Source: Arthrobacter sp. (lineage in GTDB: Bacteria > Actinomycetota > Actinomycetes > Actinomycetales > Micrococcaceae). Taken from it: 64,000 bases of DNA. A model generated the notes under the pieces. It was not told the origin of the DNA. It saw only the letters and a program-made list of their open reading frames with translations, and ran no database searches. Below, one piece after another: positions 26,433-28,309 of the stretch. The stretch's first letter is position 1. Every line of letters starts with the position of its first letter. The DNA is taken from positions 62,001 through 126,000 of the forward strand of contig JAPLAM010000095.1 in NCBI GenBank assembly GCA_026393275.1, written 5' to 3'. The translations under genes were made by a program, and so were the position numbers.

Positions 26433-26885
26433 ATGACCCTGCCTTTCGACACCCGCCCGGCCGCCTACGCCGTCATCATCCGGGACGACTCACTCCTGCT
26501 GGCGTACTGGAAACAAGGCGGACGCGAGGGCTGGACGCTGCCCGGCGGAGGCCTTGACCTCGCCGAGCATCCGGTGGACGGCTGCCGCCGCGAGATTTTC
26601 GAGGAGACCGGCTACCAGGCCCAGATCGGTGCCTTGCTCGGGATCGACGTCGGGCACTGGCCGGCCGAAACCCGGCTCGACGGCGGCCAGCGCGACTTCC
26701 AGTCCCTGCGGCTTGTTTACGAGGCGAGCATCGCCGGCGGGGACCTGCGGCACGAGGTAGGCGGCAGCACCACCCACGCTGCCTGGATCCCGCTGGCCGA
26801 GGTCGCGGACCTGAACCGCGTCTCGCTCGTCGACGCCGCCCTCCGGCTCCACCGCGAGCGGCCGCTGGACGGCAAGCTCTCCTGA
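26433..26885 (+). CDS. Nudix hydrolase
   Basis: A 150-residue protein with one Nudix domain. The box GGGLDLAEHPVDGCRREIFEETGY (about residues 36-59) has the REIFEETG core that binds Mg2+ and cleaves X-linked nucleoside diphosphates. Substrate not predictable. It is preceded by TAGGCT-N6-ATG, consistent with a leaderless mRNA. It is followed within 90 nt by the rsgA leader ORF. Confidence 0.9.
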   Translation: MTLPFDTRPAAYAVIIRDDSLLLAYWKQGGREGWTLPGGGLDLAEHPVDGCRREIFEETGYQAQIGALLGIDVGHWPAETRLDGGQRDFQSLRLVYEASIAGGDLRHEVGGSTTHAAWIPLAEVADLNRVSLVDAALRLHRERPLDGKLS

Positions 26886-26972
26886 CAATTCCCTAGCCAC
26901 CCGCGGCGCGGGAGGCTACCCTAAAGACACCGCGGGCCGGGACGGCCGCCAGGAGCCGGGGAGGTGGAAGCA

Positions 26973-27053
26973 ATGAATGCAACGGAACTGCGCGCGCAGC
27001 GCACAACCACAAACCACATCATTCTTCCTGCCCCGGCCGTCCGCATCTCCTAG
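26973..27053 (+). CDS. 26-residue leader peptide upstream of rsgA (candidate)
   Basis: ATG 26973 opens a 26-codon ORF preceded by an excellent ribosome site (GGGGAGGTGG, about 6 nt from ATG). The peptide ends in the hydrophobic/Pro segment IILPAPAVRIS. It is too short for the ORF track. The stop is 71 nt before rsgA. GGACGGCCG ahead of the ORF is complementary to CGGCCGTCC near its 3' end, and a stable hairpin follows the stop. This layout resembles translation-coupled attenuators, where ribosome stalling changes RNA folding. Function is inferred, not shown. Confidence 0.6.
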   Translation: MNATELRAQRTTTNHIILPAPAVRIS

Positions 27054-27061
27054 CCCTAATA

Positions 27062-27087
27062 GCTGACCGGTCGTTCTCGACCGCAGC
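27062..27087 (+). promoter_or_regulatory. hairpin between leader ORF and rsgA
   Basis: GCTG plus CGGTCG pair with CGACCG plus CAGC around the loop TTCT, with a 2-nt bulge. It starts 8 nt after the leader ORF stop. There is no T tract, so it more likely affects translation or RNA folding than acting as a classic terminator. Confidence 0.5.
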
Positions 27088-27124
27088 GGGCAAACGCGCA
27101 GCCGGGCCCATCAAAGGGTTTCCA

Positions 27125-28309
27125 TTGACTATTCAGCGCCAGCAACAAACCGGCCTTCAGGGGCCGTCCCGTTTCGGTTTCACCCAAGCCGTTAGGAAAC
27201 TTTTCGCCACCAATCCCGTCCCGGGCGGAACCAGCGCCGGGCGGGTGATCCGAGTGGACCGCAACCGTGTGCTGGTCGCGGACCATGACGGCCAGGCCCA
27301 GCTGCCCTACCCCCGGACCGGTCGCATGCCGGCGACCGGCGACTGGGTCTGGCTCGGCAGCAACGCGGTCGGCGAGCCGACTATCGCGGGCGTGCTGCCG
27401 CGCCGGTCCGAGCTGAGTCGCAAGCGTGCCTTTGAGGGCTCGTCCGAGGCACAGGTGCTTGGCGCCAACATGGACATCGTCGGCGTGGTCGTGCCGGTGG
27501 ACCGCCCGCTCACGCACAACAGGCTCGAACGGACCCTTGTTGCGGCCTGGGATTCGGGCGCCACCCCGCTGGTGGTGATCACCAAGGCAGACCTCGCGGC
27601 GGTGGCGGACGACGTCGTCGGGCAGGTCATGCTGCAGGCCGCCGGCGTGGACGTGGTCACCACCTCTGCCGAGCAAGGCGACGGCCTCGACGAGTTGCTG
27701 GCGTATCTGCCGCGGGGCGCGACCATCGTGCTGCTGGGTCCCTCGGGCGCCGGGAAGTCCACCCTGATCAACGCCCTTGTCGGCTTCGAGGCGCAGGAAA
27801 CGGGTGCGGTCCGGGCCGGCGACGGCAAGGGCCGGCACACCACGACCTCCCGCGAGCTGGTTCCCCTGCCCGGCGGCTCGGTGCTGATGGACACACCCGG
27901 GGTGCGGGGCTTTGGCCTGTTCGACGCCGAGGACGGCATGGACGAGGTGTTCGGGGACTTGGAGGAGCTCTTCGTTCAATGTCGCTTTGCCGACTGCGCT
28001 CACGGCAACGAACCCGGCTGTGCCGTCCAGGCCGCGCTAGCGGAGGGTGCCCTGGACGAGCGACGCTGGTCAAGCTACCTGAAAATGCAGCGCGAACTGG
28101 CTGCCCTGAACCGGCGCCACGACGCCGCGGCAAGGCGGGCGTATCAGCGCGAGTGGCACCAGAAAGTGGTGGTGGCCAGCCGGAGCCAGCGCGCCGCCGA
28201 GCGGCTCAGCGACGAGCAGCCCGGCCGGGGAAACGGAAGGCGAAACGGTAAGGGAAAGGGAAAGGGCAAGGGAAGCGGCACGGCAAACGGCCACGGCCGG
28301 GCGACGTAA
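27125..28309 (+). CDS. rsgA: ribosome small subunit-dependent GTPase A (RsgA/YjeQ)
   Basis: A 394-residue circularly permuted GTPase. The N-terminal OB-like part (about 35-100) is followed by G4 VVITKADL, G1 LLGPSGAGKST (about 205) and G3 DTPGVRGF, in the permuted order typical of RsgA. The C-terminal zinc knuckle is CRFADCAHGNEPGC. An unusual Lys/Gly-rich tail (GNGRRNGKGKGKGKGSG) is probably RNA-binding. It matures the 30S subunit by releasing RbfA. TTG start with AAAGGG 6 nt upstream. A leader ORF and hairpin precede it. Confidence 0.93.
   Translation: MTIQRQQQTGLQGPSRFGFTQAVRKLFATNPVPGGTSAGRVIRVDRNRVLVADHDGQAQLPYPRTGRMPATGDWVWLGSNAVGEPTIAGVLPRRSELSRKRAFEGSSEAQVLGANMDIVGVVVPVDRPLTHNRLERTLVAAWDSGATPLVVITKADLAAVADDVVGQVMLQAAGVDVVTTSAEQGDGLDELLAYLPRGATIVLLGPSGAGKSTLINALVGFEAQETGAVRAGDGKGRHTTTSRELVPLPGGSVLMDTPGVRGFGLFDAEDGMDEVFGDLEELFVQCRFADCAHGNEPGCAVQAALAEGALDERRWSSYLKMQRELAALNRRHDAAARRAYQREWHQKVVVASRSQRAAERLSDEQPGRGNGRRNGKGKGKGKGSGTANGHGRAT

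Follow-up and report, generated by a model that had tools for sequence, protein, structure and literature searches.

In the genus Arthrobacter, the gene of an RsgA-type GTPase, here named rsgA2, is preceded by a widely kept upstream open reading frame (uORF), the last codons of which are complementary to a segment adjoining the hairpin that holds the Shine-Dalgarno (SD) sequence of rsgA2. On balance, we read this leader as a uORF-controlled, ribosome-position-dependent translational attenuator of rsgA2. The window, as used below, is the whole stretch of 64,000 nucleotides that was analysed; all coordinates refer to it.

Organization of the leader

The leader and its gene comprise the following features.

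26894..26922, + strand: predicted promoter, read from the sequence (-35 TAGCCA at 26894-26899, 17-bp spacer, -10 TACCCT at 26917-26922), with the same layout in L010-L014
26958..26967, + strand: near-perfect SD of the uORF, GGGGAGGTGG; GGAGGTG in nearly all loci
26973..27053, + strand: uORF of 26 codons plus TAG (ATG at 26973, stop at 27051-27053), encoding MNATELRAQRTTTNHIILPAPAVRIS
26989..27003, + strand: possible small hairpin in uORF codons 6-10 (UGCGC/GCGCA), from the sequence
27032..27044, + strand: segment 2, the uORF tail, with CCCGGC at 27032-27037 (helix A) and GUCCGC at 27039-27044 (helix B), from RNAduplex and the RNAalifold consensus
27062..27087, + strand: hairpin after the uORF stop (GCUG..CGGUCG-UUCU-CGACCG..CAGC), from the sequence; similar hairpins were seen by eye in close relatives
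27086..27106, + strand: segment 3, with GCGGGC at 27086-27091 (partner of helix B) and GCCGGG at 27101-27106 (partner of helix A), from RNAduplex and RNAalifold
27107..27118, + strand: rsgA2 SD hairpin, CCC at 27107-27109 with GGG at 27116-27118 of the SD AAAGGG (27113-27118), from aligned ribosome-binding site (RBS) boxes and the cognate-arm test
27125..28309, + strand: rsgA2, an RsgA-type GTPase and paralog of the housekeeping RsgA, 394 aa, TTG start at 27125 (PF03193, E-value 1e-45)

The first-pass annotation had pointed to a 26-codon ORF with a very strong ribosome site before an rsgA-type gene, to a hairpin following its stop and to a TTG start of the gene, and all three are present at these positions. 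In the window, segment 3 lies directly 5' of the rsgA2 SD hairpin. The stability of the whole leader is unexceptional (z-score of -1.4, with 17 of 200 shuffles as good); since it has no advantage over shuffled sequence in folding, the argument depends on comparison. No match to an Rfam covariance model was obtained for the leader, either at the gathering threshold or at E <= 1, and the search for second copies in the genome of the window gave one other match to the SD-start pattern, with 2 mismatches.

Identity of the downstream gene

The target had initially been taken for the rsgA of 30S assembly, that is to say the housekeeping gene, and this assignment is corrected by the genome search. 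Two RsgA-type proteins are encoded in the genome of the window (G000), the second one on contig C63, directly after aroA. The position adjacent to aroA is the place of the housekeeping rsgA in actinobacteria, so that the window gene is ruled out as the housekeeping copy. In BLAST comparisons, the RsgA of the window has its closest matches among the second copies of other families (46-48%), single copies being more distant (33-42%). On these sequence relationships, the window gene is a paralog of the housekeeping rsgA, hence the name rsgA2. The same gene is found in Arthrobacter sp. 9V with 73% identity, and it is missing from some genomes of the genus, where the best match reaches only about 1e-25.

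A pair of RsgA/EngC paralogs has been reported in Streptomyces coelicolor, namely SCO6149, which is activated by WblC and induced by tetracycline, and SCO5211 (PMC7157823). In the sampled Streptomyces, a protein of the rsgA2 type is detected at 334-402 bits and another one, in some genomes, at 143-151 bits; SCO6149 is thus probably of the rsgA2 type. The product of rsgA2 probably acts on the small subunit.

Conservation of the uORF

The genus Arthrobacter, in the sense of GTDB, provided 70 orthologous rsgA2 loci. A strong, GGAGGTG-like SD, an ATG and an in-frame stop are kept in 67 of them, with an ORF of 24-30 codons. Among 300-nt pieces taken at random from the window, 0.49% contain an ATG ORF of 15-40 codons with an equally strong SD. 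Since the genus loci so far exceed the level of about 0.5% in random pieces, the uORF is no accident. The loss of start and stop among relatives, an outcome that the first-pass annotation had named as contrary to its proposal, was therefore not seen. Before this one gene there is thus a short ORF that keeps its SD, its start and a stop in frame, as expected of a uORF-controlled cis-regulator.

Beyond Arthrobacter, this layout is present before rsgA2 in 30 of 36 Streptomyces loci by the strict rule, and four other Streptomyces loci (L255, L266, L285 and L286) display an overlap variant, in which a uORF with a similar beginning (MTVVATGRARTRK...) enters or overlaps the start of rsgA2. The layout is likewise present in Acrocarpospora, Nocardia and Parafrankia, and in 15 of the 41 other rsgA2 loci of the window's order for which the upstream regions were read. 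Less certain are the strong-SD short ORFs situated before rsgA2-like genes in two Chloroflexota metagenome-assembled genomes (L166 and L167), the tail pairing being supported in L167 only.

In the window's order, a uORF is missing from roughly two in three of the other rsgA2 loci whose upstream regions were read. Many of the genes lacking it sit a few bases from a predicted -10 box, several with a GAAAWY-type box. This arrangement was noted for L133-L135, L143, L146, L149, L232, L242 and L248, some with GAAAAC-type boxes; judging from these predicted elements, rsgA2 is probably leaderless there and transcribed from WhiB7-type promoters. The uORF leader and the leaderless promoter would then probably be two alternative ways to express rsgA2.

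Conserved RNA structures

The arms of the rsgA2 SD hairpin change together between loci (CCC/GGG, CCUC/GAGG, CCUU/AAGG and ACCCUU/AAGGGU). Among 55 leaders, cognate arms pair better than mixed ones (z -7.4, p 2e-5, kinship being partly controlled). In the local fold, 72% of the rsgA2 SD bases are paired, an enclosed SD being a character of the ermC-type attenuators.

The second conserved structure is the pairing of segments 2 and 3 (2:3 pairing). Unguided RNAalifold returns it, together with the SD hairpin, in the clade of the window, where 2:3 is invariant. In permutation tests, in which sequence relatedness is only partly controlled, the cognate 2:3 pairing is better than the non-cognate one in Arthrobacter (p 4e-4, 24 representatives below 78% identity), in Streptomyces (p 0.004), in 18 leaders of other families (p 4e-4) and in all groups pooled (z -6.0, p 2e-5). 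The controls, made with a reversed segment or with the first codons, were not significant (p 0.07-0.79). Tested separately with fixed windows, helix A and helix B were not significant, whereas the joint test was; perhaps the helix boundaries shift between clades.

The Streptomyces 2:3 helix corresponds to GUGGCC.CCGGC/GCCGGGGCCAC. Compensatory changes are observed in L280 (GCGGUC/GAUCGC), in L276 (GUGGUCCC/GGGACCAC) and in L292, where a perfect helix of 10 bp is formed (GCGGCCUCCG/CGGAGGCCGC). In the hand-anchored alignment of the Streptomyces segments, from which L275 and L292 were omitted for the pair count, 96.6% of the cells are paired, and once the segments are slid the value does not exceed 49%; the pair-wise covariation counts alone are modest. 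The window's own 2:3 helix is complementary, yet no stronger than with foreign partners (residual +0.2), and in the predicted fold of the window the uORF tail pairs with the 5' flank instead of segment 3.

A different fold-back pairing over the ORF had been proposed at first. Its two strands, GGACGGCCG (26940-26948) and CGGCCGTCC (27034-27042), are indeed complementary in the window, but L010, the nearest relative, has CGGCAGTCC, which disrupts the pairing, and L011 lacks GGACGGCCG. The pairing was therefore rejected as a conserved structure; it is the 2:3 pairing that is conserved. In the possible hairpin of codons 6-10, the Streptomyces counterpart of which is GGGC/GCCC, the arms are nearly invariant within each genus.

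Ribosome position and the proposed control of rsgA2

The proposed attenuator would work as follows. The uORF, with its very strong SD, would be the place where ribosomes enter. Its last codons (segment 2) are complementary to segment 3, next to the hairpin holding the weak SD of rsgA2. Ribosomes crossing the uORF tail would occupy segment 2 and leave segment 3 free to strengthen the closed start of rsgA2. Ribosomes halted early in the uORF, or missing, would allow 2:3 to pair, the start region would open more easily and rsgA2 would be made. This scheme supposes that the uORF is translated and that the pairing controls translation.

A modelled ribosome, represented by masked bases, abolishes the 2:3 pairing when placed in the second half of the uORF. 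In Streptomyces, the predicted cost of opening the RBS rises from 8.2 kcal/mol with the ribosome on codon 9 to 9.9 kcal/mol with the ribosome at the stop, a difference of about +1.6 (Wilcoxon, 7e-9). In the window, it goes from 6.0 to 9.0-9.6 kcal/mol for ribosome positions from codon 16 up to four codons short of the stop, and with the ribosome exactly at the stop it is 6.3, nearly the open value. No significant shift was obtained with the Arthrobacter representatives (p 0.66) or with all 58 sequences (p 0.08). The mean accessibility of the SD is about 0.30 in every modelled ribosome state. A simple on/off switch of the SD by pairing probability was therefore rejected, the mean SD pairing being unchanged with ribosome position, and because of this constancy the direction of control comes only from the opening-cost measure. 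According to this model, early-stalled or missing ribosomes would favour rsgA2, and the inducer would probably be translation inhibitors or a shortage of working ribosomes.

The opposite direction is given by a positive translational coupling, in which ribosomes on the uORF tail melt 2:3 and pass to the start of rsgA2, so that good translation of the uORF yields rsgA2. We give this explanation roughly one chance in five. The pairing of the uORF tail with a segment adjoining the RBS, its loss whenever a ribosome occupies the uORF beyond its midpoint and a stop-to-start spacing that is often only 27-90 nt all agree with coupling; the predicted opening cost, however, rises and does not fall when the tail is occupied, and the spacing reaches 164 nt in L018.

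Control at the level of transcription, by which translation of the uORF would shield a C-rich and G-poor leader from Rho or govern pausing of the RNA polymerase, appears rather unlikely. The composition from codon 10 to the end of the uORF (47% C, 17% G) is suitable, and uORF-controlled transcription attenuation is known for wblC and ABC-F genes (PMC7157823, PMC12421871). Against this, the intercistronic hairpin is not followed by a U-run, and no intrinsic terminator was seen by eye in 27054-27124. The direct enclosure of the rsgA2 SD by the conserved structure points to translation.

Selection on the peptide or on the RNA

The first-pass annotation had proposed a possible ribosome-sensing leader peptide and had pointed to its hydrophobic and Pro-containing end, IILPAPAVRIS. 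A nascent-peptide sensor, in which the C-terminal uORF peptide arrests the ribosome and triggers rsgA2, is consistent with the IIPAPA-like ends frequently seen in one part of the genus, and with the PAPA ends that recur in L233-L239, from an 8-Mb genus of the window's order. However, the ends differ elsewhere: IPVPASACQN is present in another part of the genus, neither of the two in the third Arthrobacter clade (L066-L078), and the Streptomyces uORF ends with ..IKSTSVAAG. Of the one-base codon differences in the uORF, 12% are synonymous in Streptomyces and 32% in Arthrobacter; for the rsgA2 genes of these two genera the figure is 83-86%. Within the uORF, variation is lowest at third codon positions. 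The purifying selection on the amino-acid sequence expected of an arrest peptide was thus not found (0.12-0.32 vs 0.83-0.86). Where the end of the uORF is constant, it is so at the nucleotide level, within the paired segment. Since the IILPAP end is confined to a part of the genus and shows no sign of amino-acid selection, it was rejected as a general arrest motif, and a peptide sensor is improbable. Of the earlier proposal of leader control, what stands is a real conserved uORF, located on structures that could regulate the ribosome site of the following gene; sensing by the peptide is unlikely. The short ORF is widely kept before rsgA2, but its end motif is not general.

The low synonymous share argues that the constraint falls on the RNA and on keeping an SD, a start codon and a stop in frame. 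The RNA pairing may account for a part of the missing synonymous changes, and a weak selection on the peptide may exist as well. That only the RBS hairpin matters, at a weak start site with a TTG or GTG codon, the uORF being a translated by-product, is very improbable: the strongest covariation signal does come from this hairpin, and the uORF is dispensed with at roughly two in three of the other loci read in the order, but this reading would leave unexplained why SD, ATG and stop are kept almost universally in Arthrobacter and Streptomyces and why the tail shows its specific complementarity.

Promoter and WhiB7/WblC setting

The WblC box was taken as GAAAWY located 3 nt before the -35, as given in PMC7157823. 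The scan gives matches only, its shuffle control being too lenient for a p-value; good boxes were matched upstream of rsgA2 in Streptomyces and in the 8-Mb genus of the window's order. In the window, the AT-rich GACAATT just 5' of the predicted -35 is a weak match (5/6), with a poor -35. Each of the 25 genomes of the genus that were checked (G000-G024), including that of the window, encodes exactly two WhiB proteins, and WhiB7 was not found among them. The two proteins of the window's genome are presumably WhiB1- and WhiB2-like. Up to 7 WhiB proteins per genome were counted in other families of the order. Since the genus is devoid of WhiB7, the WhiB7-type box of the window is of doubtful use. 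Membership in the WhiB7/WblC regulon supposes a good box and a WhiB7 in the genome, and this combination was not found for the window. The leader is thus the only visible candidate for a stress control of rsgA2 in the genus.

Comparison with known systems

The rsgA2 leader resembles the attenuators of the ermC type (ermCL) by its strong-SD uORF, the hairpin enclosing the main gene's SD, the alternative pairing with a segment proximal to the uORF and a product that probably acts on the ribosome. It differs from them in that the peptide is not conserved and no inducing drug is known, the main gene codes for an RsgA-type GTPase and the switch is predicted. The uORF attenuation by which actinomycetes control whiB7/wblC and ABC-F genes (cited in PMC7157823 and PMC12421871) also involves a uORF leader, placed before a gene that belongs to the response to translation inhibitors, but proceeds via premature transcription termination, whereas no terminator was seen in the rsgA2 leader. 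With the WblC/WhiB7 regulon (SCO6149, PMC7157823), rsgA2 probably has the protein family in common, and GAAAWY-type boxes are present in Streptomyces and in some other members; the difference is that the window's genus has two WhiB proteins and no WhiB7. Finally, the ilvB-II uORF motif of Corynebacterium (PMC10272879, PMC11109978) is also an actinobacterial uORF with conserved RNA discovered by comparison, associated with a different gene and a different motif.

The main text of PMC7157823 does not connect its uORF, which is that of wblC, with SCO6149, and rsgA is not mentioned in the main text of a 2024 survey of bacterial RNA and uORF motifs. In the openly accessible main texts found on rsgA, no such leader is described. 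A proteomic study of S. coelicolor has suggested that genes of the WblC regulon may also be under translational control, the element being unnamed for most of them (PMC12421871). For this question, the rsgA2 leader provides a concrete and widely conserved candidate element.

A more speculative extension, which we advance tentatively, is that the leader senses ribosome traffic independently of any peptide. The uORF would exist only to put ribosomes on its own last codons, which are an arm of the RNA switch, and rsgA2 would answer any loss of working ribosomes and not one drug. Such a device would be kept across Actinobacteria, perhaps also in Chloroflexota, and would substitute for the WhiB7 control where WhiB7 is missing. 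A leader that answered to ribosome traffic with no selected peptide involved would be a sensor of translational distress in general, and would offer a handle on the intrinsic tolerance of actinobacteria to ribosome-targeting antibiotics.

Two further observations concern the surroundings of the leader. A NUDIX hydrolase gene (26433-26885) ends just 5' of it, and a similar sequence precedes the leader in L003, L159 and L229. At the other end, rsgA2 is closed by a low-complexity Gly/Lys tail (RNGKGKGKGKGSG; window positions 28230-28300).
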